64,000 nt of DNA from contig NC_080419.1 of assembly GCF_029873635.1 (NCBI RefSeq), positions 69,235,823-69,299,822 on the forward strand. The letters run 5' to 3'. Source of the stretch: Malania oleifera. Lineage: Eukaryota > Streptophyta > Magnoliopsida > Santalales > Ximeniaceae. A program made the position numbers and the translations under genes. The number at the start of each line of letters is the position of its first letter. Within the stretch, counting starts at the first letter, position 1. This document shows positions 5,219 to 63,435 of the stretch, in pieces. The notes under the pieces are model-generated. The model was given only the letters and a program-made list of their open reading frames with translations. It was not told the DNA's origin and did not search any database.

Positions 5219-7148
5219 TGTAACGACCTGCTTAATTAACAAGTTTTTTTTTTTTTTTTATGACATATAACATGCTCTGATACCGTATTGGGGAAAACCC
5301 AATCATTAACCTAAATAGCGAGAAGCAGAAATCACATAGACATAACCATATGAAAATATATATACAATACCAATACCAGAGTACTAACATGTTTCCCCAA
5401 AATATACACATATATCAGTTTCTCAAAATACCCTCAACTATACTAGGATATAGAAAAATCCTCCACAAACATACTCACTATCATTGACAGGGCACTACTG
5501 AAGCCTTTCTATCTACGAGCGTGGTCTCCTCGCCTACCTAGATCACCTGAAAAATGATTCAACACTAGTATGAGCCAACGCTCAGTAAGATGAAATATGT
5601 TATTACTAGTGTGTGACAATTGAGCTACAATACTGAGAAAAACTATTACTATATAGTCAGGTATCACTGAATCTGTAAAGCATAATACTAGAAATATAAT
5701 CTTCATCTTTTACCTGTTGCTTAACATTCCTATACTTTAGGTTTCTATTCAGAATATTGCTAATATATGTATATATTTTTTGTTTCTGTAAAGCTATATA
5801 AACATAATAATAATTGTAAACTTCCCTGTGGATAACTGTGTGTCATGATTTAACCACTCATGATAGGGTTGTGCGGCCCGTAGGTGGGATTTACCCTGGC
5901 TGGCCAACTAGGAATAAATCACTATACCCCATAGTCTAATCAGCCCTCCTCAACCCATATCTAATGGGGAGCCTGTCCACTTGTGGGCTCTATGCAATCG
6001 ACCTTTATACCACGTATTATCTGAATAAGTGGTTGCACTGTATAAACTGTATGTAGTTATGGTACCGTGCTCTGTAACTGTATGGTCTAACAGGGTCTGA
6101 TACTATATAATACACCTCTATATACAACTATTTGTTTTACCATGATTCTGTAATAATTGTACAAACCATGACGCTGTGGAAAACTGTATCTCTATATCAA
6201 CTATGTTTCTATAATTAACTATGAATCTGTATGTCATGGTATTGTAAAACTATATAATCATGGTATTTCTATAATTGCTGAAAAATACATTCACTATTTG
6301 TATATTTTGTAAAACACATCTCTGAAAAATAATGTAAAGCATGTTTCTATACTAGGTACATATTCTCAAGCCACACAGTAATTTTAAAACATATTAATCA
6401 TATTTGATAAACTGCACAAATCTCTGTTGTAGAACAATACTCTGGTAAAACATTTACAATTTTATACTGAAAACATTCTCAAATAACCTAGCATAGCATA
6501 TTTCTCTTACCTGTTTCCTGCTAAAAATTCCCTACTATAACAGGTCCAAAACCCGTAGGGTTCTCCACTCAACACCCTGAAAATCATAAGTCCTGGAACA
6601 AAACATCAATATTTCTTGGCCTACATCATTACCTATAACTGCCAGGAAGCCAAAAACTGAATAAAAGACCTTACCCTGAATTTGAGATGAATTCCAATTT
6701 CGTTTCACCAACGATCCGTTCTGACAGACTTGAAGAGAACTCTGCCAGAAATGTCGCGGTGGCCTTAGATCATCGATCAGGCGACTAACGGGGCCAAAAT
6801 CGACGGAAGAAGGAGGAGGAGGCGTAGAGGAGAGAGAGAGAGAGAGAGTTTGACTGAAATTCTGCGATTAAAAATCAGTTTAAGGCTATTTATATTGCGG
6901 GATTTGTCGACGAGCCATGTCATCTCGTTAACGAGTCCTTAAGGAAATTCATTGACGAACCTTACCCTTCTTCGATGAAATTCAGAGTAGCCTAAAATCC
7001 TCGCTCGGTATTTTCTCGTCGACGAAACGGGACCTTGTTGACGAGATCCTGAAGACATTTGTCGATGAAGCCTACTGCCTTATTATGTTCCTGTTTCCAT
7101 TTTCCTCCCTCTTATTTTTAAAATACTATTATTCTTCGGGTCACTACA
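5219..7148 (-). mobile_element. Solo gypsy LTR L1 (Tekay-like)
   Basis: A 1930-bp LTR reading on the minus strand, bounded on + by TGTAACGACC and GGGTCACTACA and flanked by perfect CTTTA repeats, with no internal region: a solo LTR left by LTR-LTR recombination. TATAAATA lies at 6887-6894 (-), preceded in sense by TCGTCGACGA-like palindromes (6905-7070) and followed by a GA/CT tract (6831-6849). Splice-like signals, in sense: donor 1 at 6673-6674 (CAGG|GTAAGG), acceptor 1 at 6577-6578 (TTTTCAG), donor 2 at 6509-6510 (ACAG|GTAAGAG), acceptor 2 at 5547-5548 (TTTTTCAG). A PBS-like GGTATCAGAGC sits inside the LTR at 5274-5284 (-). Confidence 0.9.
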
Positions 7149-19369: not shown

Positions 19370-19445
19370 ATGGCACAAATAGGAGTGGCTCCCTTTGGTG
19401 AGGGTCAATCCTTAACTAGACCACCCATTTTTTGTGGACTCAATT
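19370..19445 (+). pseudogene. Sirevirus C gag, first 25 codons before gypsy insertion
   Basis: ATG at 19370 opens MAQIGVAPFGEGQSLTR, the same N-terminus as Sirevirus B gag. The frame is cut after GLN by the gypsy LTR at 19446 and resumes at 28466. Across the junction the sequence agrees with the uninterrupted gag of B (LNY then FW), which supports one 5-bp duplication. Confidence 0.9.
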
Positions 19446-21390
19446 TGTAATGACCCGAAGAAAAATGGTATTTAAATAATAAAGAGTGAGGGAAATGGAA
19501 TCAGTAACAGAAGGAGGCAAGAGACTTCGTCGACGACGTTGCACTTTTGAGGAAATAACCCAAGAAATTTTTCAGGCCTCATCGACGAGGTCCTATCTCG
19601 TCGATGAGAAGATACCGAAAAGGATTTTTGGAAGTTTGAAATTCGTCGACGATGGTGCAAGTTCGTCGACGAACTTTCTACAGGACTCGTCGACGAGGTG
19701 ACGTGGCGACGAATTTCGTAGTATAAATAGTGCTTAAACTCATTTTTTACGCAAAAATTTTAGCAAAGACTCTCTCTTTCTCCTCTCTCTACGAATCCTC
19801 TCCCATTTTTCTTCGATTTTGGCTCTGTTAGCCTCTAGATCGACAATCTGAGGCCACCACGACGCTCCTGCGAAAGTTCTCTTCAAGTCTGCTGGAGCAG
19901 ATCATCGGTGGGACGGAGTTGGATTTCATCCCAGGTTCAGGGTAAAATCTTTTTAAGCAAAATTTGGCTTTCCAGCAGTTGTAGAAAATGTTGTAGGCGT
20001 AGAAATAGTAATATTTTATTCTGAGATATATGGTTTTCAGGATGTTGAGTGGAGAACCCTGCGGGTTTAGGACCCGTCATAGTAGGGGAATTTTAACAGG
20101 AAACAGGTAAGAGAAATATGCTTTGCTAGGCAGTTTTAAAATGATTTTCAGTATGAAATGTAAATTTTTACCAAATTAATATTCACATTAGAACTTTATA
20201 CAGTTTATCTAGTATGTTTAATATGTTTTAAAATTATTGTGTGGCTTGAGAATATATATATAGTACAAAAACATGTTTTACAGTATTTTTCAGATTTATG
20301 TTTTACAGAATATATAGACAGAGGAGATATTTTATAGTAATTACAGAATACCATGATTATACAGTTGATACAGATACAGTTTACAGTACCATGACATACA
20401 GTTTTACAGTTTATTTCAAAAATACAGTTGATACAGATTCAGTTTATCACAGCGTCATGGTTAATACAGTTATTACAGAATCATGGTAAAACAGATAGTT
20501 ATATACAAAAATGTATTATATAGTATTAGATCCTATTGGACCATTACAGTTTATAGAACACGGTACCGTTGCTACATACAGTATAGAGTGCAACCACCTA
20601 TTCAGATAATACGTGGTATAACAGTCAATCGGATGGATCCCAAGAGTGGTTAGGCTCCTCATTAGATATGGGTCGAGGAGGGCTGATCAGACTGATGGAG
20701 TATAGTGGTTTATCTTGGTTAGCCAGCCAGGGTAGATCTCGCCTACGGGCTGCACAACCCTGTCATGATGGGTTAAATCATGACACATAGTTATCCACAG
20801 GGAAGTTTTCAGTTATTATATGTATATACAGTTTTATAGTAGCATTGGGTGTACTTATGTATAGTAGAAGAATTATTAATGGAAAACCTATAAAAGTAAA
20901 TATGTTAAGCAACATGGGTACATGTGGTGGCTTTATATTTTATTTGTACTTGTATTCTCATATTCATTTATACATGACTATATATAGAAACAGATTTTCA
21001 TGGTATTGTAACTCATTTGCCACACACTAGCAATAGCATATTTCATTTTACTGAGCGTCGTCTCATCCCATTACTTTAACATTTTTCAGGTGATCCAGGT
21101 AGGCGAGCTGATTAGGCTCGCAGGTAGAGGGGCTTTAGTACTGCCCTATCAGTAGAGAGTGAGTATTTTTTTGGAGTATTTCTATATAGCCCTAGCCCAG
21201 TTAAGGGTATTTTGCAGAACAGTCGTACATGTATATTTTTGGGAATATTTTAGTACTCTGGTATTGTATATTTTGAATATGGTTATATGGATTCAGCTTC
21301 TTGCTGCTTAGGTTGACAGTTTGGTATTAGAGTATTATAAATCTCATAGTATATATATATACAACTTGAAATAAATAGCAGGTCGTTAAA
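19446..21390 (+). mobile_element. Gypsy 5' LTR (L2)
   Basis: 1945 bp from TGTAATGACCCG to GGTCGTTAAA (the CA end mutated to AA). U3 has six TCGTCGACGA-like palindromes (19525-19700). TATAAATA is at 19722-19729 with a CT-rich tract 40 bp on. Splice-like signals: donor 1 at 19942-19943 (CAGG|GTAAAA), acceptor 1 at 20039-20040 (GGTTTTCAG), donor 2 at 20107-20108 (ACAG|GTAAGAG), acceptor 2 at 21088-21089 (ATTTTTCAG). The core CCTACGGGCTGCACAACCC lies near 20741. A PBS-like TGGTATTAGAGT is buried at 21322-21333. Confidence 0.92.
20107..21089 (+). other. Candidate leader intron 2 inside gypsy LTR L2
   Basis: 983 bp between a strong plant-type donor (ACAG|GTAAGAG) and an acceptor (ATTTTTCAG|G). A smaller candidate intron (19942-20040) lies 66 bp upstream. 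The last 70 bp, with CACACACTAGCAATAGCAT and TTTTACTGAGCGTCG, are conserved among the LTRs and contain possible branch points. Splicing is inferred from position and conservation, not observed. Confidence 0.5.
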
Positions 21391-21392
21391 AT

Positions 21393-21405
21393 TTGGTATC
21401 AGAAC
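21393..21405 (+). promoter_or_regulatory. Primer binding site of the gypsy element
   Basis: TGGTATCAGAACC lies two bases after the 5' LTR. It matches the initiator tRNA-Met complement except for one G-to-A change. Confidence 0.88.
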
Positions 21406-21695
21406 CTAGGTATTTAGGTTAGGTAGACTTTAGAGTGCAGCGGAAGCAATACCAAAGTATAGGAAAGGATTTGAGGTTTGTTATGTTGTTTGGGTACAGG
21501 AATTTTCGTGGTGGTTTCTGTGCTTTTCCTGGGGTGTTGATTTTAGGAAAACCATAGTAAACTATTGTTAGGTCACGTGTCTAGGTGACAGAATTGGATA
21601 TTGAGTTAAGGTCAGGAAAGGTAGTTAATTTTTAATTGGTACAAGATAGCTCTGTGTAGAAGATAAGGTTCTTAAGTGTGTTTCTTTTTATCAGG

Positions 21696-22740
21696 ATGAA
21701 CCCGGGAAGCAGTGGTACAATTGTTGGAGGAGACAGGCTTGGACCTTCCAACATGGGTGGAGATACCGACGCAGTATTGCGCAGCGTCACCTAGCAGGTG
21801 ATGGTTGAGATGACCAGGAGCTCTGGGGAGTGTGACAGTTCGATCGAGCAGTTTATGCGGATGAAGCCCCCATCTTTTGCTGGAGGAGATGACCCGATTG
21901 TAGCTGAGAATTGGGTCTAGGACATCGAAGAGACGTTGGCAGTGCTTCCTTGTTCGGATGAGCAGAAGGTAGTATTTGTAGCATATAAGCTGATAGGGGA
22001 GGCGAAGCGCTAGTGGATATCAATGCTACTGATAGAGGAGTAAAGGCTGGTTCTAGTACCAGTGACGTGGGACTGATTCAAGGAGCTGTTCTTCGAGCGA
22101 TATTTCCCTGCTATCGTTCGGAGCACGAAGGCAGCAAAGTTTATGCATCTGGTACATGGGTAGATGTCGATATCCCAGTACGCGGCTCGGTTTATCGAGT
22201 TGTCACGTTTTGCTCCACATCTAGCACCTGATGAAGAGAAAAAAGTAAGGAAGTTTGAAGATGGATCGAGGTAGAACTTATTTGAGCAGGTGATTGGCTT
22301 CAGATCTCAGGCATTTACGGAGGTTGTAGATAGAGCTGTGATCATTGAGAACAATATACAGAGGGGTATAACGGCTCTGAGTCATAGGAAGAGGTCTGTG
22401 CCTCGGGGCTTTCAGGTTGGCTCTAGTAGGGGTCCATGAAGAGGAGGTCGTGATAGGGGAGATCAGAGGTAGATGGTAGGACCTCAGGGGAATCAGGGTG
22501 CGCCAATCATCCCAGTATGTCAGATGTGTGGGAGACGTCATTTGAGGGAGTACCGGGTAGGGAGAGATGCATGCTATCGATGTGGGAGACCTGACCACAT
22601 GGCATGTGCATTCCTAGGACTGCTAAACCAGGCCCCAACTCCCAGGCCCTATTGGGGAGGATATCAGGCGCATTGTGGAGGACAGCAGAGGAATGTAGCC
22701 TCGGCGAGGGTTTACGCATTGATGCAGGGTGATGCTGAGG
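21696..22740 (+). pseudogene. Gypsy gag with nine nonsense codons
   Basis: Retrotransposon Gag starting MNPGSSGTIVGGD. The capsid region is readable without frameshift: FMRMKPPSFAGG, EETLAVLPCSDEQKV, FKELFFERYFPAIV, YAARFIELSRFAPHLAPDEE, NLFEQVIGFRSQ. A basic Gly/Arg stretch and a CCHC knuckle CYRCGRPDHMACA (near 22575) follow, whose last Cys is displaced. In-frame stops are at 21792, 21918, 22011, 22041, 22074, 22161, 22272, 22437 and 22470. Most fall where related Gags have Gln, Arg or Trp. It packages genomic RNA in a live element; here it cannot be made. Confidence 0.88.
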
Positions 22741-23340
22741 CTGCCACGGATGTGGTGATAGGTACTTTTTTTGTTTTATCACATTCTGTTATTATTTTAT
22801 TTGATTCAGGTGCTACTCATTCCTTTGTCTCTACATTATATGTTAAATTATTTGGAAGTGAGACTCAATTATTAGATAGAGAACTGTCAGTAGCTACACC
22901 ATCTGGGTCAGTAATACGGTGTTAGAGGGTGCTTAGAAGTTATCCTATAGAAATTCAGGGAAGAGTGCTACCAGTGTACCTAATTGTGTTTGAGATGTGC
23001 GGGTTTGATATAATACTGGCTATGGATTGGTTGGCTGTTAATCATGCCAACATTGATTGTTCTCAGAAGGAAGTAGTTTTCAGACCCCCTAGTGAATAAG
23101 AATTCAGGTTTGTTGGTTCGCGTGTACATGCTCTGTTGCAAATAGTATCAGCTTTATAGGTAAGAAGATTACTTCGGGATGGAAGTCAGGGGTTTGTGGC
23201 TTTTGTAAAGGAAGCGTCAGAGAATGAATTGAAGCTTGATAGTACCCCAGTCGTATGAGAATTTCCAGATGTTTTTCTAGAGGAGCTACTAGGGTTGCCT
23301 CCCGAACGTGAGGTGGACTTTTCTGTAGTTTTTCCTCCAA
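22741..23340 (+). pseudogene. Gypsy aspartic protease
   Basis: Continues the gag frame. The active site LFDSGATHSFVS is intact (near 22800-22835), followed by LSVATPSGS, PVYLIVFEMCGFDIILAMDWL and the linker ending [19 protein letters not shown], which leads into reverse transcriptase. Stops are at 22923 (TAG), 23097 (TAA), 23157 (TAG) and 23256 (TGA). Confidence 0.88.
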
Positions 23341-23850
23341 AGACAGTACCGATTTCTAAGGTTCCCTATCGTATAGATCCAGCTGAATTAGGAGAATTGA
23401 AGAATCAGTTGTAAGACTTGTTGAATAGGGGATTTATACGACCCAGTGTATCGCCATAAGGAGCTCTAGTATTGTTTGTAAAGAAGAAAGATGGGTCTAT
23501 GAGGAAGTGTATTGATTATAGAGAAATCAACAAGGTTACTATTAAGAATAAATATCCTCTACCCTATATAGATGATCTGTTTGATCAGCTCCAGGGTACA
23601 CAGGTGTATTCCAATATTGACCTCAGATAAGGTTATTATCAGGTGAGAGTAAAGGCAAAGGATGTTGCAAAGACAACCTTCAGGACCAGGTACGGGCACT
23701 ATGAATTTCTCGTTATGCCTTTTGGTCTGATGAATGCTCCAACTGTGTTCACGGATTTGATGAATATAGTTTTTCACCAATATCTAGATCAGTTTATAGT
23801 AGTTTTTATTGATGATATACTGGTGTACTCGAGGAGTTTTTAGGATCATG
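23341..23850 (+). pseudogene. Gypsy reverse transcriptase
   Basis: RT core in order: [85 protein letters not shown] and the catalytic [10 protein letters not shown] (near 23802-23834). Stops at 23412, 23457, 23628 and 23841 (where relatives have Gln, Trp, Ser and Gln). The catalytic Asp pair is kept. Confidence 0.9.
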
Positions 23851-24620
23851 AGGTGCATTTGAGGCAGGTACTGCAGACACTCAGGGAAGAGCAACTCTAT
23901 GCCAATTTTAGCAAGTGCGATTTCTGGCTTGAGAAAGTTGCATTTTTAGGCCACGTGATCTTAGGAGATGGTATTTCAGTGGATCCCAGCAAGATCGTTA
24001 TAGTTGTGAATTGGGTCAGGCCGAAGAACATGCAAGAAGTTAGAAGTTTCTTAGGACTAACTGGTTATTACCATTGGTTTGTTGAGGGGTTTTTGGCTTT
24101 GTCAAGACCTCTCACGCGTTTGACTAAGAAGAATTCCAGATTTGTGTGGGATGAAGAATGTAAGCATAGTTTTAAGGAATTAAAGCAGTGGCTCATCACT
24201 ACACAAGTACTGATGATTCCATCAGGAGGTGATGGTTATATGATTTATAGTGATGCGTCTTTAAGAGGACTCGGTTGTGTATTAATGCAGCATGGTAGGG
24301 TGGTGGTGTATGCATCTAGGAAGTTGAAAGAATATGAAAATAACTACCTTACTCACGATCTAGGATTAGCTGCGGTTGTACATGCACTAAAGATCTGGAG
24401 ACATTACTTATATGGTGAGACATGTGAAATATTTTTTGATCACAAGAGCATAAAGTACATCTTCACACAGAAAGAGTTGAATATGTGTCAGAGGAGATGG
24501 TTAGAACTCATCAAGGATTACAACTGCACCATCAGTTACCACCTAGGTAAAGCAAATGTGGTAGCTGATGCACTGAGCAGTAAATAAAAGGATACAATGC
24601 AGTTAGCAGCAATAATTTAG
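23851..24620 (+). pseudogene. Gypsy RNase H
   Basis: 244 codons open from 23853. The RT thumb ([33 protein letters not shown]) is followed by RNase [56 protein letters not shown] and [19 protein letters not shown] catalytic Glu usually found in THDLELAA is Gly here (GGA at 24363-24365). A stop follows at 24585. Confidence 0.88.
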
Positions 24621-25720
24621 CACCCGATTCAGATGGACTTCTAAATACTCAACATGGAATTAGTAGCAGATGATCCTCTGGCGCTTATTTCCAGTCTAGT
24701 TGTACAACCTACACTATATGAAAGGATTAAAGCCACTTAGGGGAATGATCCATAATTGGCAGAAGTCATAGCTAAAATACAGGACGGTCAGGGAGAAGAA
24801 TTTAGCATTTTTGACGATGGGGCTTTGAGATTTCACCCCAGATTGTGTGTGCCTATAGATGACAACATCAGGAGGACGATTTTAGAGGAGGCACACAGAT
24901 CTCTATACAGTGTTCATCCTGGCAGTACGAAAATGTATAGGGATCTGCAGGAGTATTTCTGGTGGAGTGACATGAAGAGGGAAATAACAGAATTTGTGTG
25001 GTAGTGTTTGACGTGCCAGCAGGTTAAGGCTGAGCACCAGAGGTCAGCTAGTTAGTTGCAGCCACTTTTCATTCCTGAATGGAAGTGGGACCACGTATCC
25101 ATAGATTTTGTCATTGGGTTACCACCGACGCTGCATGGTTAGAATTTCGTCTGGGTAATTGTTGATAGGTTGACAAAGACAGCTCACTTTCTACCTATTA
25201 AGATTAGCTACCCTATGAACATGTTAGCAGAGATTTACATACAAGAAATTGTTCGACCCCATGGAGTGCCGATATCCATAGTCTCGGACCGTGATCCACG
25301 TTTCACATCGCGGTTATGGAGGAGTTTGTAGGAGGCACTAGGGACTCAACTAGCATTCAACACCGCTTTCCATCCTAAGAATGATGGTCGGACAAAGAGA
25401 ACTATTTAGGTACTCGAAGATATGTTGCAAGCGTATGTATTGGATTTTGGGGGTAGCTGGACTCAGTATATGTCATTAGTGGAATTTGCCTACAACAACA
25501 GCTATCGGGCTGGCATAGGTATGACTCCTTATGAAACATTTTATGGTAGGAAGTGTCGTTCCCCTCTATACTGGAGTGAGCTGGGTGAGAGGCGAGTTTT
25601 GAGGCCAGAAATAGTACAGCAGGCGTACGATAAAGTTTGACTCATTCGAGATAGGATCAGTGCAGCACAGAGTTGGCAGAAAAGTTATGCAGATACTTGC
25701 CATCGGGAACTGGAATTTGA
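24621..25720 (+). pseudogene. Gypsy integrase, catalytic Glu replaced
   Basis: HHCC zinc finger: EAHRSLYSVHPGSTKMYRDL and CLTCQQVK (near 25008). Core: WDHVSIDFVIGLPP (first Asp), [13 protein letters not shown] (second Asp), then HPKNDGRTKRTI, where the third catalytic residue is Lys (AAG, 25395-25397) instead of Glu. C-terminal VEFAYNNSYRAGIGMTPYE and FYGRKCRSPLYWSE follow. Stops at 24642, 24738, 24753, 25002, 25053, 25140, 25329, 25407 and 25638, mostly at expected Gln positions. Confidence 0.9.
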
Positions 25721-25721
25721 A

Positions 25722-26147
25722 GTGGGTGATCATGTATTTTTGAAGATAGCACCGCTGAAGGGAATCATGAGGTTTGGGAAGAAGGGTAAGTTGAGCCCTA
25801 GGTACATTGGCCCATTTAAGATACTCGAGAAGATTGGGTTAGTTGCCTATCGGTTGGCTTTACTGCCATCTCTATTTAGGATTCATGACATGTTTCATAT
25901 ATCTATGTTAAGGAAATATGTCCCAGATCCTTCCCATATTATTAGCTACACCGAATTGGAACTCGGTGATGCTTTGTCATATGAAGAAGCTCCAGTACAG
26001 ATTTTGGACAGAAAAGAACAGGAATTGTGCAGTAAGAAAATACCACTAGTCAAAGTCCTGTGGAGGAACCACACGATAGAAGAAGCTTCTTGGGAACTTG
26101 AAAATGAGATTAGACAGAAATACCCCCACCTATTTAGTGGGTCATAG
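25722..26147 (+). pseudogene. Gypsy integrase C-terminus with chromodomain
   Basis: 141 open codons. GDHVFLKIAPLKG and KLSPRYIGPFKILEKIG are the GPY/F module of integrase. PSLFRIHDMFHISMLRKYVPD leads to the chromodomain: EEAPVQILDRKEQEL, IPLVKVLWRNHTIEEASWEL and EIRQKYPHLF. The domain is thought to steer integration by reading histone marks. Aromatic residues (W in WRN, W in ASWEL) are present. Ends with TAG at 26145-26147. Confidence 0.9.
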
Positions 26148-26394
26148 CAGTGATGTGTAAATTGAAGTAGTGATAATTTTGTTTTGTACAATGTAATTGT
26201 AATGTAGAGTATAGGATAGGTAGTATTTTGGTTTTGGGGGAATTTTCTTTTATTCTTGTAATCTCCTAGAACTACCCATGTAACTATGGTATTCCTCCAC
26301 CATAAGTCAGGGCAGGTAATAAAATAAGTAGACCGTTTTGCCTTTAAGGGATGATGAGTTTTATGAATAGTAAATTTCAAGGACGAAATTTTAT

Positions 26395-26407
26395 AAGGAA
26401 GAGAGAA
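26395..26407 (+). promoter_or_regulatory. Polypurine tract of the gypsy element
   Basis: AAGGAAGAGAGAA immediately precedes the 3' LTR start TGTAATGACC. The upstream GGACGAAATTTTATAAGG is typical of Tekay-like elements. Confidence 0.85.
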
Positions 26408-28460
26408 TGTAATGACCCGAAGAATAATGGTATTTAAATAATAAAAAGGGAGGGAAATGGAATCGGTAATAGAAGGAGGCAGACAACTTCGTCGATGACA
26501 TTGCACTTTGGAGGAAATAACCTAAGAAATTTTTCAGGCCTCGTCGACGAACACAGGGGTTTCGTCGACAAGGGTTCTTCAGATCTCGGGGACGAGGTCC
26601 TGTCTTGTTGATGAGAAGATACCGAGAAGCATTTTTGGAAGTTTGAAATTCGTCGACGAGGGTGTAGGTTCGTCAGCGAAATTTCTATAGGACTCGTCGA
26701 CAAGGTGATGTGGCAACGAATCTCGCAGTATAAATAGTGCTTAAACTCATTTTTTACGCAAAAATTTCAGCGAAGACTCTCTCTCTCCTCTCTCTACGAA
26801 TCCTCTCCCATTTTTCTTCAATTTTGGCCCCGTTAGCCGCCGATCGACGATCTGAGGCCACCACGACGCTCCTGGGGAAGTTCTCTTCAAGTTTGCCCGA
26901 GTGGATCGTCAGTGGGACGGAGTTGGATTTAATCCCAGGTTCAGAGTAAGGTCTTTTAAAGCAAAATTTAGCTTTCCAGCAATTGTAGGAAATGTTGTAG
27001 ATGTAGAAATAGTAATATTTTATTATGAGATATATGGTTTTCAGGATGTTGAGTGGAGAACCCTACGGGTTTAGGACCCGTCATAGTAGGGGAATTTTAA
27101 CAGGAAACTGTATAGAGAAATATGCTTTGCTAGGCAGTTTTAAAATGATTTTCAGTATGAAATGTAAATTTTTGCTAAATTAATATTCACATTAGAACTT
27201 TATACAGTTTATCAAGTATGTTTAATATGTTTTAAAATTATTGTGTGGCTTGAGAATATAGATATAGTACAAAAACATGCTTTACAGTATTTTTCAGAGT
27301 TATGTTTTACAGAATATATAGACAGAGGAGATATTTTATAGTAATTACAGAATACTATGATTATACAGTTGATACAGATACAATTTACAGTACCATGACG
27401 TACTGTTTTATAGTTTATTTTAAAAATACAGTTGATACAGATTCAGTTTATCACAGCGTCATGGTTAATACAGTTATTACAGAATCATGATAAAACAGAT
27501 AGTTATATACAAAAATGTATTATATAGTATTAGACCCTATTGGACCATTACAGTTTACAGATTATAGTACCGTTGCTACATACATTATAGAGTGCAACCA
27601 CCTATTCAGATAATACGTGGTATAACAGTCAATCGGATGGATCCCAAGAGTGGTTAGGCTCCCCATCAGATATGGGTCGAGGAGGGCTGATCAGGCTAAT
27701 GGAGTATAATGGTTTATCTTGGTCAGCCAGCCAGGGTAGATCTTGCCTACGGGCTGCACAACCCTGTCATGATGGGTTAAATCATGGCACATAGTTATCC
27801 ACAGGGAAGTTTTCAGTTATTATACGTATATACAGTTTTATAGTAGCATTGGGTGTACTTATGTATAGTAGAAGAATTATTAATGGAAAACCTACAAAAG
27901 CAAATATGTTAAGCAACATGGGTACATGTGGTGGCTTTATATATTATTTGTACTTGTATTCTCATATTCATTTATACATGACTATATATAGAAACAGATT
28001 TTCATGGTATTGTAACTCATTTGCCACACACGGGCAATAGCATATTTCGTCTTACTGAGTGTCGTCTCATCCCATTACTTTAACATTTTTCAGGTGATCC
28101 AGATAGGCGAGCTGATCAGGCTCGCAGTTAGAGGGGCTTCAGTACTGCCCTATCAGTAGAGAGTGAGTATTTTTTTTGGAGTATTTCTGTATAGCCCTAG
28201 CCCAGTTAAGGGTATTTTGCGGAACAGTCGTACATGTATATTTTTGGGAATATTTTAGTACTCTGGTATTGTATATTTTGAATATGGTTATATGGATTCA
28301 GCTTCTTACTGCTTAGGTTGACAGTTTGGTATCAGAGCATTATAAATCTCATAGTATATATATAAAACTTGAAATAAATAGTAGGTCGTTACAACTTGGT
28401 ATGAGAGCATTATAAATCTCATAGTATATATAAACTGGAAATAAATAGCAGGTCATTACA
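26408..28460 (+). mobile_element. Gypsy 3' LTR (L3)
   Basis: 2053 bp, close partner of L2. It has about 45 bp more U3 (extra TCGTCGAC boxes near 26545-26590) and a tandem duplication of its last 70 bp (28329-28460). TATAAATA is at 26729-26736. Donor 1 GTAAGG at 26946-26947, acceptor 1 at 27043-27044, acceptor 2 at 28092-28093. Donor 2 is damaged (GTATAG at 27110). Two PBS-like boxes lie inside, TGGTATCAGAGC at 28327-28338 and TGGTATGAGAGC at 28397-28408. Confidence 0.92.
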
Positions 28461-28465
28461 CGATT

Positions 28466-30162
28466 ATTCCTTTTGGATGCAACGAATGAGATTCTACCTT
28501 CAAACAATGGATTGGAAGGCATGGAATGTTGTCACAAATTGAAATCTGATCCCTACTAAACTAGTATATGGAAAAGAAGTACCTAAAAAGGAAAAAGAAC
28601 TAATCGAATCAGATTACAAAATGTTGCGGATTAACTGAAGTGAAATAAATGCCTTATATAGTGCACTTGATGCAAATGAATTCAATAGAGTAATGACATG
28701 TAAAATAGTTAAGGAAATTTGGAGCAAATTAGAAGTAACCTATGAAGGCATAGTAGATGTTAGGGACAGTAGAATTGATATGTTAATTTGTGAATATGGA
28801 GCTTTTAGGATGAATTCCGATGAAACTATAATAAACATGTATACTAGGTTCACACATATCATAAACTCACTAAGTGCCTTAGGAAAAACATATTCCACCC
28901 ATGAGATGATTCGAAAAATTCTAAGAGCACTTCCATCTATGTGGGAACCGAAAGCCACTGCCATAACGGAAGGTAGAAACCTCAAAACAACTTCATTAGA
29001 TGAACTTATAGGATCACTTCTAACCTATGAAATGGTTTTGAAAGAAAGAAGCAAAGAAAATAAAAATAAGAAGTCTATAGCTCTAAAAGCCTCAAAAGAA
29101 CATTCAAATGAAGAAGATAACGAATCTAGTGAATTAGAAGATGAAGATTTAGCTTTCATAACTAAAAGACTTGGAAAATTCTTGTAAATAAACAAGAAAT
29201 TCACTAGAAAATTCAACGGATCAGAAACTGAAAAAGGTGAAAGTAATAAAAAGGAATACAAAAGCAAAAATGAATCTCCCACTTGCTATCACTGTAAAAA
29301 GGCTTGACACATCAAGCCGGACTACCCGTAACTCAAGAAGGAAAAGAGGAAAAAGAAGCTTGCAATGAATGCAACTTGGGATGACACAAGCTTGAGTGAA
29401 TCAGAGAGCGAATCAAGCGATCAAGAAGTAGCAAACATGTACTTCATGGCACACAATGAATAGGTAAACTCTTACTACTCTTTCTCAGAAGATTCGTGTG
29501 ATGAATCATGTGATAATTCATGTGAAAGCATGCCTTCTTATAAAGAACTTCAAGCTGAATTATTTTCTCTTCATAATAAGTTCATTAAGGTCTTAAAAAG
29601 GAACATAAGCTTGAAACAACCAAACGAAACACTTAGAAATCAGATTGAATCTTCAAAAATTGTTGAAAAAGAAGAAAACCTAAAGATTGAAGAGCTTGAG
29701 AAGAAAGTAGATAACATGTCTCAAAAATTAGCTAAGTCTCAAGTGAATGAAGATAGAAAAAGAGTGCTAGAAATAATTGATCTTAAAAACCAAATTTAAG
29801 ATAAGGAGAAGGTTATTTACAACTTTACCAAATGTAAAGATAACTTCGAAAAAATGCTAGGACAACAAAGGATGACTAACAATAAAGAAGGAATTGGTTA
29901 CAATGGAACACCAAACAAAAGAAAGAAAAACTTGTTTATGAGATATTTTGTAAATCAATCTAAACACTATGCAAGTACTTCATCGACAAACATTTATGAG
30001 CATACTACTTGCTACATGTATAAAAATAAAGGACATATAATGTTTAATTTTCCACTCAAGAAAAAGTACATGAAAGTAAAAAGTGAATGGAAGATAAACG
30101 CTAAAACTAGACAAGATTTAAAGAAAGTTAAGAAAGTTTGGATTCCAAAAGTAACAACATAA
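28466..30162 (+). pseudogene. Sirevirus C gag, remainder after gypsy insertion
   Basis: One reading frame from SFWMQRMRFYLQTMDW to the TAA at 30160, with seven nonsense codons (28540, 28636, 29185, 29305, 29329, 29461, 29797) and no frameshift. UBN2 capsid motifs (IWSKLEVTYEG, MYTRFTHIINSL, IRKILRALPSMWEP) are followed by an acidic region, zinc knuckle 1 (CYHCKKA, then a stop, and Cys to Tyr), a long coiled-coil-like stretch (29530-29799), and zinc knuckle 2 (CYMYKNKGHIMFNF) with two Cys lost. Both knuckles are therefore dead, unlike those of Sirevirus A. Confidence 0.88.
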
Positions 30163-30560
30163 ATCTTTTCTTGTAGGTTTGCTTTAGGACCACTCCGTCT
30201 AAAGATAAATGGTAATTGGATAGTGGATGTTCAAGACATATGACGAGATATAAATCTAAGTATACTTCTCTCACTAAAAAGGATGGAAGATATGTAACCT
30301 TCGGTGACAATGCAAAAGGCAAGATCATCGGAATTGGTAAAATAGGTAAAGACTCTTCACTCACTATAGATGATGTCTTGTTAGTTGATGGTCTAAAACA
30401 TAATATATTAAGCATTAGTCAACTTAGCGACAAAGGATTTGAAATAATGTTTAAGAAAGACAAATGCATAATTCAGAATTCTAAGGATCATAAGACATTA
30501 TTCACTACACATAGAATGAACAATGTGTATTGCATAAACCTTGGCAGCTTGATCTCTTAG
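30163..30560 (+). pseudogene. Sirevirus C protease
   Basis: The protease starts one frame away from gag: the active site reads MDSGCSRHMTRYKSK (30216-), where the Leu of WYLDSG is Met-like after a damaged WYL (TGGTAATTG). VTFGDNAKGKIIGIGKIG, LLVDGLKHNILSISQL and the CIIQNSKDHKTLF stretch follow. Ends in TAG at 30558-30560. Similar over its length to the protease of Sirevirus A. Confidence 0.85.
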
Positions 30561-30581
30561 GATATAACTTACTTAGCTGCT

Positions 30582-30980: not shown

Positions 30981-31139
30981 AATTTCATTAGTTTCATTTT
31001 GCTTGTGCACAAATACCCATTTGTATTCAACGAGTTGGATATCTTTTGTTGTTTGGATTACAGGTCCAAAAACTTCTCTTTTTGATAGAGAGTTTGTTGT
31101 GAAAATAATGCCTCTTCCAACAATGCACAACAGAATAAA

Positions 31140-32904: not shown

Positions 32905-33798
32905 TGTAACGACCTGCTTAATTAACTGAGTTATATATATATATATATATATATACTCTACATACTCTGACACCATACTGGGGGGTAAACCCATTCATTA
33001 ACCTAAGCAGCAAGAAGCAGAAATTGAATAAACGTATCCATATGTAAATATATACAACACCATACCACACAATACCAGAGTGCTACATGTTTCCCAAAAA
33101 TATACACATATCTCTGTTCCCCAAAGCACCCTCAACTAGCTAGGGTATACAAAATCATTCCCAAAAATGTACTCACTCTCTGACAGGGCACCATTGAAGT
33201 CCCTTTACCTGCGAGCCTGATCTGCTCGCCTACCTGGATCACCTGAAAAATAATTCAATACTGGGATGAGCCAACGCTCAGTAAGAAGAAATATGCTATT
33301 ACTAGTGTGTGGCAAATGAGCTACAGTATCATGAAAACCTATTTTCAAATAAACATGTATAATTGAATATATAAATAAAGTATAAGTAATAAAATCCACT
33401 ATCCCCGTCCCTATTGCTTAACATAACAGTATTGGAGATTATTATTCAAAATACTTCTAGTATAAGTAAGCATGTTCCTTGTTTCTGTACATACGTAATA
33501 ATAATTGAAAATGTTCCCTGTGGCTATCTGTGTGTCATGACTTACCTCCTCATGACAGGGTTGTGCGGCCCGTAGGCGGGATTTACCCTAGCTGGCCAAC
33601 TAGGAATAAATCACTATACTCCATCGGTCAATCTGCCCACCTCAACCCATATCTGGATGGGGAGCCTAACCTCTTCAAGGGCCTAGGTGATTGACCTTAT
33701 CACGTATTATCTAAACACTCATAAAGTAACATAGTATCTGTAGCAACAAGACCGTGCTCTGTAGCTGCAAGTCCAACAGGGCCTGATATCATATAATA

Positions 33799-33835
<37 letters not shown>

Positions 33836-34938
33836 ATCTGATTTACCATGATTCTGAAGTACTGAATTAACCATGATGCTGCATAACTGCACTATAATTC
33901 ATATGTCGTAATACCGAAACTGTATAATCATAATACTAAAACTGCATAATCGTAAAACTAAAACTGTATAATCATAATACTGAAACTGTATAATCATACT
34001 AATATTCGTGTAATCATGGTACTGAGATTCATAAAATCATGGTACTAAAATTTATAAAATCATGGTATTAAAATATCGTAAAATTAGGATACTGGAATAT
34101 CATAAAACTTATATTCGTACTATATTCATATTCAAAAGCCACACGATACTGTAATACATAATTTTCATCATTAAATAAACTGTATAATATTTTAAAAATA
34201 CCTAGCATAGCATATTTCCCTTACCTGACTATTGGAAAGCCCCTATGGAATACTAGCCTAATACCCGCAGGGCCTCCTACAAAACACCCTGAAACCAACA
34301 TATGTCAGAACAAAATATCAGTATTTTTCTGCCTATATCGTTTCCTATAACTGTCATAAGGTCAAAAATAGGCTAAAAGGCCTTACCCTGAATTTGGGAT
34401 GAAATCCAACTTTGTTTTCCACCCGATCTGCTCCGACAGACTTGTAGAGAACTTTGCCAGGAGCGTCGTGGCAGCTTCGGATCGTCGATCCGGCGACTGG
34501 AGGGGTCGGAATAGAAGAGAGAAAGGAGAGAGTGACGTAGAGAGAGAGAGAGAGAGAGAGAGGAAAGAGGAAAGAGGAAAGAGAGAGGAGCGTGAAAAAT
34601 GGGTTTAAAATCCGGTTTTTAGCTGTTTATAGGGCCAGATTCATTGACGAGACACGTCACCTCGTTGACGAGTCCTTCATTAAATTCATCGACGAGACCC
34701 TGTATTCGTCGATGAAATTCAGAGTAGCCAAAATTCGTCTCTCTGTATTTTCTCGTTGACGAAGCCCTGTATTCGTCGATAAATTTTCTTCTGCACTCGT
34801 CGATGAGTCCTAGCAGTTTCCAAAAATAAAAATTATCCCCAAAATGCGATAACGAAGTCTACGGCCCCCTTCTGTTTTCGTATCTATTTTCTTCCCTCTT
34901 ATTATTATTAAAATGTTATTATTCTTCGGGTCACTACA
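32905..34938 (-). mobile_element. Solo gypsy LTR L4 (Tekay-like)
   Basis: 2034 bp on the minus strand between perfect CATAC duplications (32900-32904 and 34939-34943). No internal region. In sense: TCGTCGACGA-like palindromes (34640-34810), TATAAA at 34626-34631, a GA/CT tract (34541-34561), donor 1 at 34385-34386 (CAGG|GTAAGG), acceptor 1 at 34289-34290 (GGTTTCAG), donor 2 at 34223-34224 (TCAG|GTAAGGG), acceptor 2 at 33243-33244 (TTTTTCAG). PBS-like TGGTGTCAGAGT is trapped at 32964-32975. The core GCACAACCC is near 33560. Confidence 0.92.
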
Positions 34939-40158: not shown

Positions 40159-42367
40159 TGTAATGACCCAAAAATTCATTTAATTTTTTTAATATGCCCT
40201 ATCATATATATATATATCAGATACCTTTGATCAATCCTACTAGATACACCTATGCAACGGAAAATATAAAATTGTATAACAATAATTACAATGCCAGAAT
40301 TTTGTATTTTTCCTAATTTATATATATATATACATAAATACACAACCCCCAACAACGACTACCAAAACTCTTGAAATCTAATCTACCCAAAAATGCATCT
40401 CCTTGAAAACACTTACCTTATAGATAGGGCAGTGCAAACGACCTCTCAGTAAGATAAAATATGCTATTACCAGTGTGAGGCAACTAAGTTTACATGAATA
40501 ATATAATGATAAGTAATTGAAACTGGGGTAACATGTAAAATAAAATACTGTGTAACTCACACCTATGTGGATTAAAATACAGCTGTTACTGAACTTACTG
40601 TTTAATTATACTTATATAATTTATAGGTACTTATATAATTTATAGGTCAATTTGCGGATTTATATATATATAACTGTAAAAACTTCCCTGAATGGCTGTA
40701 TACCATGATTTAACCCCTCATGACAAGGTTGTACGGCCCCGTAGGCAGGACTTAACACTAGATGGCCTACTAGGATAAGTCAATTGAATCTCTATCATCA
40801 GATCGAATGCCTCAACCTAGATTACTAAGGAGCCTGCAATCCCTCCAAGGCATGGTAACCGATACCTCCTACGTCAAACCGGCCGCCTCGACACAGAATA
40901 CTGGGCAGCCTGCATTCCCTCCCAAGGCATGGTTGACTACTCAAAAATCCACACACTATCTAAGATATGTGGTTGCACTCTTATCTGAATTAGCTACGGT
41001 ATCGTGCACTGAATACTGATCTGAATATGATCCATCAAGGTCTAATGCTGTATAATACTAATATATATAATTATCTTACTATTTTACCATGATTCTGATA
41101 CAACTAAAATAACCATAACATTGTATAAACTGATCTGAATAAACTGTAATAACTAAATATCTAAGATATCTGAATAATTGAATTATCTGAATGAATGAAA
41201 TATCTGATTAACTGAAACAACTGGATGTTATGGTTCTGAAATCTGTATGTCATGGTATTCTGAAAATGCTGTAAAATATAGGTTTTAGTACTTATACTAT
41301 AAATTATGGTATTTTGAAAACTGTATAAACTCTGTACAGATCTAATATTAACTCATGCCACACGACTAAATAAATGAAAACCCCTATACTGAAATCTGTA
41401 TTTACTAATAATAAAAGTAATTTATAATCTGTAGAATTGTCCCTGAAACATATATATTTTACTGATAAAATTTCTAAAATTACTAGCATAACATATTTCC
41501 CTTACCTAACTAACTAGGAGATCTGACTTCAATTTTATTCCTACGTCCACAGCGCACCAAACACAAAATCCTAAAATATATATGTATATTTTCCTAATTT
41601 AGTCAACTTAAACTCATAATAATAACTATACTCATATTTTTCCCAGCCTCACATATCCATAAAATTTTAAACTATTAATTTATTTATCAACATTACCTGA
41701 GTTCATGGGAGAATACCTACTTGAATCCTCAACCCATGCCTGCGGTGTTTGGAAACCCAAACCCTGAAATTACAAAACCGTAGTTTAATCAACTCAAACA
41801 CCAATATATTTTAATCTAATACAAAATATGGATTCAGAAAAACCTAAGAACTATAAAAACCCTACTTACCTTGATTTTAGGATAGTGTCTAAACTTCTCA
41901 AACCAAAATTTCACTTTGACTAAGTTGTAGAGAATCTCTCCAAGATCATCGTGGTAGCTTCTGATCATCGAACCGGGGAGAAATGGGGCCAGAATTTTGG
42001 AGAGAAGGCAGAGAACCCGAATTTTGGAGAGAGAAAGGTGAGAGAAACTGATTTTCTCGCTAAAATTTATCTTTTTGTGTATTTATAGGTGGCTGGCCAC
42101 GTGGCTTCGTCGACAAGTCACGTCAACTCGTTGACAAACCAAAGAAGGTAGTTCGTTGACGAGGGTGAAAAGCTCGTCGACGAGCTGATGGGTCTAAATT
42201 ACCCCCTCTCGGTTTCTCTTCATCGGCGAGATACTGAAACTCATCCACGAACACTGCATGGGAGTTTGTCAACAAAACCAGAGCATTCGTCGACGAACCC
42301 TGCTTTGATTCTTTTAAATTTTTCCTTCTCTCTATTATTTAATTATTATAATTTTTGGCTCTTTACA
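40159..42367 (-). mobile_element. Gypsy 3' LTR L6, minus strand
   Basis: 2209 bp between TGTAATGACCC and GGCTCTTTACA on +. The polypurine tract (42368-42382) and gypsy pol follow on the right, so it is the 3' LTR of a minus-strand element. In sense: TCGTCGACGA-like palindromes (42103-42295), TATAAATA at 42080-42087, donor 1 at 41868-41869 (AAG|GTAAG), acceptor 1 at 41764-41765 (ATTTCAG), a possible donor 2 at 41695-41696 (CAG|GTAATG) and a second GTAAGGG at 41504-41505. Acceptor 2 is weak near 40392. The core GTACAACC is near 40730. Confidence 0.82.
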
Positions 42368-48752: not shown

Positions 48753-50838
48753 TGTAGAGACCCAAAAAATTAAATAATAAAATAAATAGGAAAAAAGAGG
48801 TTTTTGGCAGAGAGAGGAGAAAACCGGCGACGGTTTTCTGGAGTGTATAGGAAACCATCGCCAATTTTCTATTTAACCCGCCTGTTTTGTCGTTCACCTG
48901 TTACCGCTCCACAGTAAAACCCCTAAACCGTTGACGGTTTCCTATCCACTCTAGAAAACCGTCGCTGGTTTTTTCTACAGTGGGCGTATTAAAGAAGTCC
49001 TACAAGCTCATTTGGGTTAACAAATAAAAATCACTCACTCACTCTCTCTCTCTCTCTCTCTCCCAAACCCAACGAAGCTCCCTCCTTCTCTCTTCGATTC
49101 CAACTCTATTATAGCCCGAATTGACAATCAGAATCCACCACGAGGTTCTTGGGAAGATTCTCTGCAAACTACGTAGAGCAGATTTTCAATTTGGGGTTTC
49201 AAGGCACCATCCCAAAAACCAGGGTAAGTGGTGTATTTTAGAGTTTTTAAGCTCATTTGGAGTATACGAAAACTAGGAAATGTTAAATGGAAATTATTCT
49301 CGAGTTGAGTTGAATAATTTAGGGAAAATGTAAATTTTAGGTTTTTGGGCTATGAATGCTGAGGGGCGTAGAAATTGGGTGTTTTAGAAAAATCTAAATA
49401 AGGCAGGTAAGGGGAATAAATTATTACAGTCAATTTGAGAAATATTGATTGAGTTATTATGTGAAAATGGTATTATGATATTTTACCTGAAATTTATTAC
49501 TATATGAAATATCAGATGAAATTTTTTTGGTATATGATTTATATTGAAATGTTTTGGAAATTGAGTTAATTGATCCATACTGAGCATATGAGATTATGAA
49601 ATGTTAATTGAGATATGAGTTTTGAAATGGGGAAAAATGATGAAAGTGGAATGTATTGAAAAATGTATATCTTTTGAGAAATGATGAATATGAGATATGA
49701 GAATGTTTTATTGAGAAATGTGAATTACGTGAAATGAGGTATGTATATGTATTTATGAGATGAAATGAGTTGTGAATATTGAATTGTGAAAGCTAAATTG
49801 GGAATATTGCAATGTTAATATTGCAATGAAAATAATGAAATGTGAATACTCAAATGAGAGTGAGAATGCGAGTATTGTAATGTGAATACTACAATACAAA
49901 TATTGAAGTGTGAATGTAAGAAATGTGAATATGAGGAATATGAATATGAGAAATGTGAATATGAGAAATGTGAATATTACAATGTTAATTCTATAATATG
50001 AATATTGAATTGTGAGAATTGAAATGTGAAGTTCTAAAATATGAATATAGAAATGTGATTGATGAAATACTAATACCGCATAATGATTGCGGGTATGTGG
50101 TAGCGATAATCCTGATGGATGGATATGGAAACCCAAATAATGGGTTGTGATATTAAGCATGGTATCATTTCTAGTGGTGTTAGTGCAACCACACGGACTC
50201 GTGGAGCGTGTGGCGTGACAATCGACTGAGTTGTATAGTAGAGTTGTTGTACCCCCTAAGTTCAGATCAGGGTTATTGGCCGGCCAGTCGTACTACAGAT
50301 ACGGGATATATGGTATGATAATATGATCTAACCGAGTCGGCCAACCGCGGTTAGGTCCAGCCTTCGGGCCGCACAACCCTATTCATGGGAGGAAGCATGA
50401 CGTGGAGAGATATCCTCAGGGCAGCCATGTGTAGAGACACGGATGTATCGGTTACGATGACACTAATGAGCTAGATATGGAAATTGAAATGAAAAGAAAA
50501 TTGAAATGGAAATGAAATGAGAATGGAAATGAGAAAGAAAATGAGAAATGAAATAGCATGAGTTAATAATATAAATAATTAAAACGAAGTAAAACACACC
50601 GCCTGAGGGCTTGCTGTGTAAGGTGAGTGCTATGATAAGTATTAGTTGTAGCTGAACCTGACTAATCAGGTTAGGATGTAAATGATATCAAGGCAGCTAT
50701 TCTCAGGAAGGTAATTATGGGTTGCGTGTGTATGGTTTTAAAAATGAAAGTAAAAGCTTATGAAAGCTTGTGTTGTATATCTATATGATTGTAATTGTGG
50801 AAATGGTATATTTTCTTAGAAGATATTATCACTGATAT

Positions 50839-50885
<47 letters not shown>

Positions 50886-51141
50886 ATGATATAATGAATC
50901 TCATACTACCACACACTGTAGATAATTTATTTCGTCTTACTGAGATGTGTCTCACCCAATCATTTAAATATTTCAGGAAATCAAGATAGACCTGGTGATA
51001 GAGCTCCGAGATAGAGGGGAGCTAATACCCTGGTTAGATAGGGTGAGAATTTTAAGTTGAGGAGGTTTGATTCCTCTAGAGGTTTTGTGGTAGACTTGTA
51101 TGTATGAATGGTTGGTACTCTAGTATGTGTATTCACTGTGG

Positions 51142-54933: not shown

Positions 54934-54986
54934 AGCCCTGCTTCTTCTTGTGTTACTTTCACTTTGAATTAATTCAAAAGGCAGAG

Positions 54987-54992
54987 TTTATA
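54987..54992 (-). promoter_or_regulatory. Possible TATA box of the B3 gene
   Basis: Minus strand CTATAAACTC about 55 bp upstream of the ATG, leaving room for a 20-25 nt leader. A GC-rich stretch with CCCGGAG and CCGGCC words lies just upstream (55003-55035). Confidence 0.5.
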
Positions 54993-61366: not shown

Positions 61367-62525
61367 TGTAACAACCCGAGATTCTTACACAAGGCCTCGT
61401 CGAAAGATACATGGAATTCGTCAACGAGCGCATAAGGGGACCTTGTCGACGAAGCCACGTCTCGTCGACGAGAAGATACCGAGAAGGGTTTTTGGGACAG
61501 TCTGAAATTCGTCGACGAGGGAGGAAGTTCGTTGATGAAATTACTGAAGGACTCATCGATGAGGTGACGTGTCTCATCGATGAATCCAACCCTATAAATA
61601 GCTGAAACTCAGATTTTTTATCAAATTTTAGCGTAAAACCCTCCTCTCTCTCTCTCTCTTCTATGATTCCCTCCCCTTCTCTCTTCGATCCTGACCCCAT
61701 TTCTCCCCGGATTGAAGATTCAAGGCCATCACGACGCTCCTGGCGAAGTTCTCCGCAAGTCTGTCGGAGAAAATCGTGGGAAAAGTTGATTTGAAATTCA
61801 TCCCAAATCCAGGGTAAGGTATTTTGTTCGGATTATGCATTCCTTATAGTTGTAAGAAATGTTGTAGGTAAGGAAATACTGATGTTTTGTTCTAGGAGAT
61901 ATTGTTTTCAGGATGTTAAGTTAGGAATCCTGCGGATATAGAGCTAGAATTTTATAGGGACTTTTCAGAGTTAAGGTAAGGGAAACATGCTATGCTAGGA
62001 GATTTACTTACGTTATCTGAAATTTTATATATTTATGCATGTATACCAGATATTATACAGGATATGAATTTTTAAAGCATGTGTGGCCTGAGTCTATGAT
62101 ATTGATATAGAATTTTATGTAGTTTTTCAGTATTTCAAGTTATACAGATATAGTGAGATAATTGCAGATTTTATACAAACATAATTTGCATATATACATA
62201 TATACATATATATATATATATTTATTTATTTCAGATGATTATATAGATAGTTATATATATATCAGTATACAAATATTTATTCAGAACAGTATATATAGTG
62301 CATATAGAAAGTTATGTTTTCCTAAATGCCATAACACTTAGATTATACAGAAATGAAATACAGAAAGATTATATAGAAAGGAAGTACAGACAAATTATAT
62401 AGAAAGGAAGTATAGACAAATTACACAGTTATAACATCAAGATGTTACAGATATTACAGTATTTACAGTACAACAATATAGTGTTATGGTTATTTTGGAA
62501 ATATAATGAAAACAGTATAAAGAGC

Positions 62526-62572
<47 letters not shown>

Positions 62573-63435
62573 ATAGTATCATATCCTTGTGGAAAGATTA
62601 CAGACAGATACAGTACAAATATAGAATATAGAGCACGGTACCGTTGCTAGATATAGATAGAGTGCAACCACATATCTCAGATAGTGTGTGGGTACCATCA
62701 GCCATACTCGGAGAGTATGCAGCTCTCCAGTTCGCTGGGTTGAGGGGGTCGGTTTGACGAGATAGCAGCCAGTTCCGCGCCTAACAGAGTATGTAGTTTG
62801 GTTGGGCTGAGGTAGTGTAGAGTATAGTGACTTACCTGGAGGGCCGACCAGGTTAAGTCCCACCTACGGGCAGCACAACCCTGTCATGAGGTGTCAAATC
62901 ATGACATACAGAATCTCAGGGAAAGAACACAGTTATGTATATGTATACATTTTTAAAGCTTTTATTGTATATAGTATGATGTAACACTACGAATGATAGA
63001 AAGTTCAGATGATACAAATGTTTTAAGATATTATACATGTGTTGTACAGAATTTCCAGATTATGCAGTTTTTAAATACTATTGTTATAATTTTATGACTC
63101 GGTCGCCACACACTAGTAATAGCATATTTCCACTTACTGAGCGTCGACTCACCCCATTACTTTACCATTTTTCAGGCGAGACAGTTAGGCGAGCAGATTA
63201 GGCTCACGGATAGGAAGTTTACTTGATTACCTCAGTCGTAGGTTGAGTTATGACAGAGTTGTGTATTTTTGAGGTAGATGATGCTGGAGGATTTTATTTT
63301 GTATGGTCATGGCTTGTATATAATGGATTCTGGATGGTTATATGATTTGTATTTCCGCAGCTTAGGTATGGATGTAGATATACATATAAAATAAAAATAA
63401 AAATAAAAAATAGTAAGAATTTTGAGGATGTTACA
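61367..63435 (+). mobile_element. Solo gypsy LTR L9 (Tekay-like)
   Basis: 2069 bp from TGTAACAACCCG to GAGGATGTTACA, flanked by GGTGC (61362-61366) and CGTGC (63436-63440), a 4-of-5 match. U3 palindromes TCGTCGACGA (61396-61584), TATAAATA at 61593-61600, CT tract (61645-61660). Donor 1 at 61814-61815 (CAGG|GTAAGG), acceptor 1 at 61910-61911 (TGTTTTCAG), donor 2 at 61976-61977 (AAG|GTAAGGG), core CCTACGGGCAGCACAACCC near 62862, acceptor 2 at 63174-63175 (ATTTTTCAG). A (TA)n run is at 62528-62569. Confidence 0.9.

Follow-up and report, generated by a model that had tools for sequence, protein, structure and literature searches.

A putative spliced leader with three introns in the long terminal repeats of a Ty3/gypsy retrotransposon group of Malania oleifera

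Plant LTR retrotransposons are generally without introns, Ogre and EVADE being named as exceptions in the available part of a 2025 review (PMC12786077); the available text of a paper on BARE adds Bagy2 and CRR as further spliced gypsy elements, CRR through removal of rt (PMC3735527). Diaspora, a Ty3/gypsy element of the Athila group, resembles the locus described here in that five splice donors are predicted in its LTR and two acceptors flanking its gag start, and its authors stated in 2005, in the portion of the paper available, that introns upstream of gag were as yet unreported for retroviruses and LTR retrotransposons alike (PMC1142308). In sunflower, nanopore data revealed splicing in two copia elements, and the expressed set in the accessible sections of that study holds no Tekay element (PMC7730604); a term search of the available text of a paper on LTR structure finds no mention of splicing (PMC3601003). 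None of the matches listed from the open-licence full-text literature, judged by their titles and the opening of their abstracts, describes introns within the LTRs of plant gypsy elements. In plants, the way in which a retrotransposon shares out a single transcript to translation and to replication is an open question.

The stretch of DNA analyzed here (the window) comprises 64,000 nucleotides of M. oleifera, positions 69235823-69299822 of its contig; the genome searched has 1.494 Gb in 510 contigs. Seven LTRs of one gypsy group in the window, remnants included (L1, L2, L3, L4, L5, L8, and L9), were aligned. L2 and L3 are the LTRs of one Ty3/gypsy element of ~9 kb (19446-28460); the pair, beginning at 19446 and 26408, bounds an internal region carrying protease, RT-RNase H, and integrase, with Pfam matches to RVP_2, RT_RNaseH, Integrase_H2C2, and SH3_Tf2-1 that place the element in Ty3/gypsy. 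Its coding region is broken up into short open frames. The C terminus of pol reads LVKVLWRN...EEASWE, which has no Pfam Chromo match at E 0.001 and which we take to resemble a type II chromodomain, a trait of chromoviruses of the Tekay/Del clade; the group may be chromovirus-type Ty3/gypsy. Elsewhere the window contains copia-type gag/pol pieces (3044-4303, 8943-9692, and 28639-31082), a minus-strand open frame matching a B3-domain protein (54178-54987; At2g31720-like) that is likely a host gene or fragment, and a 261-nt unit in six tandem copies (55108-56681).

An earlier note on this DNA had proposed that a spliced leader is built into these LTRs. Consensus signals conserved between families, steps in G+C content, constant exon lengths, and a contrast in ATG content support the proposal, which had missed a third intron. 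From its sequence, the LTR probably carries a leader that is non-coding, consists of three short exons with three spliceosomal introns, and would give rise to a spliced gag-pol messenger without the primer binding site (PBS). More tentatively, such a leader could be an RNA switch in a large plant retrotransposon lineage, in which the RNAs for translation and replication would be separate by construction. The features are listed in Table 1.

Table 1. Leader features and LTRs in the window. A slash marks an exon-intron boundary; lengths in the form 99/65/984 are those of intron 1, exon 2, and intron 2 in nt.
Feature	Position	Strand	Basis
L2, 5' LTR of Ty3/gypsy element (TGTAATGACC...), PBS directly after	19446..21390	+	sequence
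TATA box (TATAAATA) in L2	19722..19729	+	sequence; function inferred
Leader exon 1, CT-rich at its start (5' end inferred), without ATG in L2	19750..19941	+	
Candidate intron 1 (GTAA...TTTTCAG), 99 nt, 29% G+C	19942..20040	+	
Leader exon 2, 66 nt in L2	20041..20106	+	
Candidate intron 2 (GTAAGAG...TTTTTCAG), 983 nt, 27 ATGs in L2	20107..21089	+	
Conserved block in intron 2, 32-72 nt upstream of acceptor 2 (CACACACTAG.AATA...TTTTACTGAGCG)	21017..21057	+	pieces among most conserved 12-mers
Leader exon 3, 69 nt in L2	21090..21158	+	
Candidate intron 3 (GTGAGTATTT...TTTTTATCAG), 536 nt: LTR tail, PBS, internal leader	21159..21694	+	
Primer binding site (TGGTATCAGAACC) within intron 3	21394..21406	+	
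gag start codon, 1 nt past acceptor 3	21696..21698	+	
L3, 3' LTR of L2 element, 99/65/984, donor 2 destroyed	26408..28460	+	alignment
L1: 98/66/964; intron 1 6674-6577, intron 2 6510-5547, donor 3 at 5478	5547..6674	-	
L4: 98/64/982; intron 1 34386-34289, intron 2 34224-33243, donor 3 at 33176	33243..34386	-	
L5: degraded, deviating layout 299/65/1104	40402..41869	-	alignment
L8: 117/66/1570; intron 1 49224-49340, intron 2 49407-50976, donor 3 at 51043 (AGG/GTGAGA)	49224..50976	+	
L9: 98/64/1200; intron 1 61814-61911, intron 2 61976-63175; own donor 3 mutated	61814..63175	+	

The presence of two donor/acceptor pairs in the LTRs is confirmed. Donor 1, acceptor 1, donor 2, and acceptor 2 lie where they had been reported in L2, L1, L4, L8, and L9, with coordinates and lengths re-measured, and their order recurs on both strands and in diverged LTRs (L1 and L4 on the minus strand; L2, L8, and L9 on the plus strand). 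L3 has the reported 99-nt intron 1 and 65-nt exon 2, but its donor 2 is ruined (CT/GTATAG). The lengths claimed for L5 (113/62/999) are replaced by those of the alignment, and L5 has a weak acceptor 2 (TTTTCAAG/G). The interval from donor 1 of L5 to its aligned acceptor 1 (41571-41869, minus strand) contains an acceptor-like TTTCAG/GG and a donor-like CTCAG/GTAAT, and an extra small exon may lie within it. Transcription of L2 would begin ~25-30 nt beyond the TATA box.

Exon 2 is 64-66 nt long in all seven window LTRs, and intron 2 varies from 964 to 1570 nt; exon 3 has 66-69 nt in six of the seven (L1, L2, L3, L4, L8, and L9) and 55 nt, by alignment, in L5, which is degraded. A coding role for the exons was considered and rejected, as the shortness of exon 2 and its lack of a shared ATG in the L2 family mean that it is not a conserved frame. 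A search of 19400-21800 for known RNA families gave three matches, all far under the gathering scores.

Conservation between families was assessed in L1, L2, L4, L5, L8, and L9, using GT and AG columns aligned in at least five of the six; splice sites were scored with a table of the general plant splice-site consensus. By this table, donors 2 and 1 take the top two places among the 14 aligned GT columns (means 7.2 and 5.4; next 0.9), as acceptors 2 and 1 do among the 24 aligned AG columns (4.3 and 3.5; next 2.0). Among windows of the same length, core conservation across the six LTRs lies at percentile 98.5 for donor 1, 97.4 for acceptor 1, 99.8 for donor 2, and 94.6 for acceptor 2; when four windows were placed at random 20,000 times, their joint conservation was never reached, and all four cores are found among the top nine 12-mers of the LTR by conservation, overlaps excluded. 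Two blocks of intron 2 are conserved to a like degree: one (20736-20759; GCCTAC.GGGCTGCACAACC) is, like the splice sites, among the best conserved 12-mers, and the other (21017-21057; CACACACTAG.AATA...TTACTGAG) ranks beside the splice sites in the same measure. The latter is a possible branch-point region, and both blocks are candidates for the control of splicing balance. The conserved-block pattern was also tried as a route to relatives elsewhere and rejected: it matched 19 IMG/VR contigs, all one unrelated sequence, and a longer version had no match in the viral and genome contig collections searched.

Within one family, two sets of copies were compared. The first comprises 42 copies chosen by overall similarity (38 matches apart from L2 and L3, together with the window's L1-L4), for which 40 of 16,408 candidate loci were scored; the second comprises 20 copies picked by donor 2 alone, among the matches listed for a 35-nt pattern spanning that site. 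GT or AG is intact in 37 (donor 1), 36 (acceptor 1), 41 (donor 2), and 34 (acceptor 2) of the 42 copies, where the intact sites have median ranks of 2, 2, 1, and 1, respectively, among all GT and AG of the LTR downstream of 19740. In the 20 copies donor 1, acceptor 1, and acceptor 2 are intact in 16, 18, and 15, against baseline means of 13.2 over 98 majority-GT columns and 13.6 over 128 majority-AG columns. Compared within the family, as the earlier note had proposed, the cores are only mildly better conserved than other windows: in the 42 copies donor 1 lies at the 60th percentile, acceptor 1 at the 92nd, donor 2 at the 76th, and acceptor 2 at the 87th. The corresponding values in the 20 copies are 94.5 for donor 1, 92.5 for acceptor 1, and 67 for acceptor 2. 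This weak contrast presumably arises because most copies are dead and decaying neutrally, leaving constraint visible mainly between families.

Conservation was also compared between whole segments. In the 42 copies intron 2 (0.91) exceeds the exons (0.83-0.87), an excess due at least in part to ascertainment, since the query that picked these copies was mostly intron 2; in the 20 copies exon 2 leads (0.892), followed by intron 1 (0.828), exon 1 (0.796), intron 2 (0.783), and exon 3 (0.779); and between the six LTRs exon 2 is less conserved than intron 2. Because exons are not consistently better kept than introns, plain exon-intron conservation decides nothing.

The exons of L2 have 47, 48, and 54% G+C (exon 1 taken as 19740-19941) and its introns 29, 32, and 34%; over the 42 copies the means are 0.48-0.51 for exons and 0.30-0.32 for introns 1 and 2. 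The candidate introns show the sequence properties of the U2 type: GT-AG ends with the plant consensus, a T-rich make-up, and flanking exons richer in G+C. Counted from 19740, the unspliced L2 leader has 1,956 nt and 34 ATGs; full splicing would take out 1,618 nt and leave 338 nt with one ATG (20042, in exon 2), which occurs in 3 of the 42 copies. ATG sites common to at least 21 of the 42 copies number two in intron 1, 25 in intron 2, four in the LTR tail, and none in exons 1, 2, or 3, that is, 0 in 337 nt of exon versus 31 in 1,314 nt of LTR intron (Fisher P 0.002); base composition predicts ~5.3 shared exon ATGs (Poisson P 0.005 for none). Exon 1 is free of ATG in nine of the 42 copies, with a mean of 1.5 per copy versus 2.6 expected, and these ATGs of single copies, mostly at a few sites, are ascribed to decay of ACG. 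Applied to individual copies, the ATG test is weak, as removing random stretches of the same lengths does as well in 3,968 of 20,000 trials in L2 and in 115 to 1,967 of 5,000 in six other copies. In exon 2 the L9 family shares a single ATG, whose frame ends after three codons in a copy with ATGTTGAGTTAG. Full splicing would thus strip the leader of nearly all upstream ATGs, so that ribosomes could scan to gag-pol.

Removal of introns 1 and 2 would leave the PBS in the messenger, so the separation of RNAs would fall to intron 3, whose removal would take the PBS with it. Donor 3 (21158/21159) directly follows the 69-nt exon 3 of L2 and reads GTGAGTATTT; beyond it, in copies that continue into the internal region, come the LTR tail, the PBS (TGGTATCAGA...; in L2 at 21394-21406, which we take to be identified by its tRNA match), and a leader of ~300 nt ending in a T-rich stretch and an AG at the gag start (for example TTTGTTTTCAG/GATGGACC). 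Judged by sequence alone, a splice from this donor in the LTR to the acceptor at 21694 would remove the PBS. Introns 1 and 2 and donor 3 would thus be provided by the LTR downstream of its TATA box and acceptor 3 by the internal region. With the PBS inside intron 3, the messenger could not be primed by tRNA, and RNA destined for copying would have to stay unspliced, escaping at least intron 3. If replication follows the usual cycle of LTR elements, strong-stop DNA copied from unspliced RNA would bring back the entire repeated region together with its introns. PBS-like copies (TTTGGTATCAGAGCATTATAAAT) are also found in the LTR tail (21320-21342) and in L2-family copies; with a single motif they were located ahead of the LTR end, as determined, in 23 of the 38 fetched copies, and in L3 (26408-28460) such a copy sits within a ~70-nt tandem duplication, as if the LTR had outgrown an older PBS.

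Acceptor 3 was read in 13 copies (L2, eight of the 38 fetched loci, and four 5' members of LTR pairs ~7 kb apart), two of which, L045, which ends before gag, and L037, which is without a gag start, were left out of the count. Of the 11 readable L2-family copies, 10 have an AG whose end lies 0-1 nt ahead of the gag ATG (L2, L010, L015, L028, L034, L036, L040, L106, L108, and L109; L107 has lost the acceptor), three of the ten reading CAAG rather than CAG or TAG. The L9 family was represented by the 10 best matches after L9, of 40 candidates scored; these loci were fetched in part, and the gag start is present in no more than two of them, L079 and L085 (L081 runs into gag but lacks the leader). 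In these two the acceptor is TTTGCAG/GATGGACC, at the same position as in the L2 family and different in sequence, and intron 3, of 484 and 485 nt, has the PBS inside in both.

These data bear on the foremost alternative, that the introns are real and serve expression only (transcription, export, translation, or removal of upstream ATGs), any separation of RNA pools being a by-product. Leader introns are common in plant genes, introns 1 and 2 leave the PBS untouched, and the ATG contrast by itself fits a role in translation, so that this reading is a possible one; we consider it less likely, as it does not account for an intron 3 that runs from the LTR to the gag ATG in two families with differing acceptor sequences, an arrangement by which PBS removal goes with intron 3.

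It is also conceivable, and rather unlikely, that only introns 1 and 2 are used and that donor 3 and the T-rich AG ahead of gag either arose by chance or are used in rare isoforms. Donor 3 is the weaker match: it lies at the 85th percentile over the six LTRs and is absent from the top aligned GT columns, is not intact in L5 and L9, and in the L2 family has A rather than G at -1, with a median rank of 14 (42 copies, same consensus table). Read by alignment column it is poor (7th percentile in the 42 copies; GT in 4 of 20), for which an adjoining 2-nt indel is blamed, and it was therefore counted by motif. So counted, GTGAGT stands 65-69 nt past acceptor 2 in 34 of the 42 copies and 67-72 nt past it in 15 of the 20 (background 0.19 per kb per strand in the 38 fetched loci, donor-3 sites included). 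Such constancy of place argues against coincidence, as do the intact GT of donor 3 in all 10 L9-family copies (donor 1 being intact in 9, acceptor 1 in 6, donor 2 in 9, and acceptor 2 in 8) and an acceptor AG at the gag start in 12 of the 13 readable copies, the L2 and L9 families taken together. A further acceptor-like site within intron 3, upstream of acceptor 3, GATTTYAG/GAAAACC at 21539-21547, is conserved in both families (L079 and L085 too) and counts toward use of two introns only; it could be an alternative acceptor.

Processed copies were sought with sequence patterns. The 35-nt pattern spanning donor 2 matched 3,250 places with up to three mismatches, and a like 35-nt pattern for exon 2 joined to exon 3 matched none. 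LTRs without intron 2 would exist if RNA that had lost this intron and still carried the PBS were copied; the absence of joined copies fits spliced RNA never being copied and equally fits no splicing at all. A 30-nt junction pattern was tried and rejected, as those of its 834 matches that were listed are unspliced acceptor 2 sites resembling the end of exon 2. That no splicing occurs, the conserved blocks being other DNA or RNA elements (transcription-factor sites or packaging/dimer signals) that mimic splice sites, would agree with the lack of joined copies and with the position of some top conserved 12-mers within intron 2 away from splice sites; we regard it as improbable, because such functions would not jointly predict the order of donors and acceptors, the composition steps, the constant exon lengths, and the exons free of shared ATGs. 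That the leader was captured from a host gene whose 5' UTR held introns, and now lies inert, would match its likeness to an ordinary plant leader and is very improbable, since an inert relic would not show sites conserved between LTRs (L4, L5, L8, and L9) that are otherwise ~60-68% identical to L2.

If the three-intron leader is spliced, the split between translation and replication would, for this family, be decided in the LTR, with upstream ATGs and the primer site cut out; its purpose could be the separation of messenger from genome or higher expression. Splicing might also explain the ~2 kb length of the LTR, and many of the thousands of copies could be portable promoters with a spliced leader.

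Among retroviruses, foamy viruses and the HTLV group have their major splice donor in the R region of the LTR and produce spliced RNAs without the PBS, a likeness to the leader proposed here; their Gag is made from unspliced RNA, whereas in the elements of the window splicing would affect the gag messenger itself. A review describes, in its available part, only spliced Pol and Env messengers (PMC7828637). Penelope-like elements likewise retain introns through replication, according to the accessible text of a report on them (PMC3846280), and differ in reverse transcriptase, replication mode, and terminal repeats. The splice signals predicted in Diaspora are of medium confidence and from one element, their relevance was left open by its authors, and a conserved exon series is not part of the description in the portion available (PMC1142308). 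Ogre (Ty3/gypsy, Tat), also a plant element, has according to the available text an intron that is partly spliced and thereby regulates how much protein is made (PMC6317226). In BARE1 and EVD/ATCOPIA93 (Ty1/copia) splicing gives a separate Gag RNA, a further likeness; as far as the available sections of those papers go, the intron lies inside gag-pol and yields a short Gag RNA, and leader introns are not described (PMC3735527, PMC12786077). Unlike elements of the Ogre or BARE/EVD type, whose intron lies within or between the gag-pol frames, the elements in the window would have the introns described here upstream of gag.
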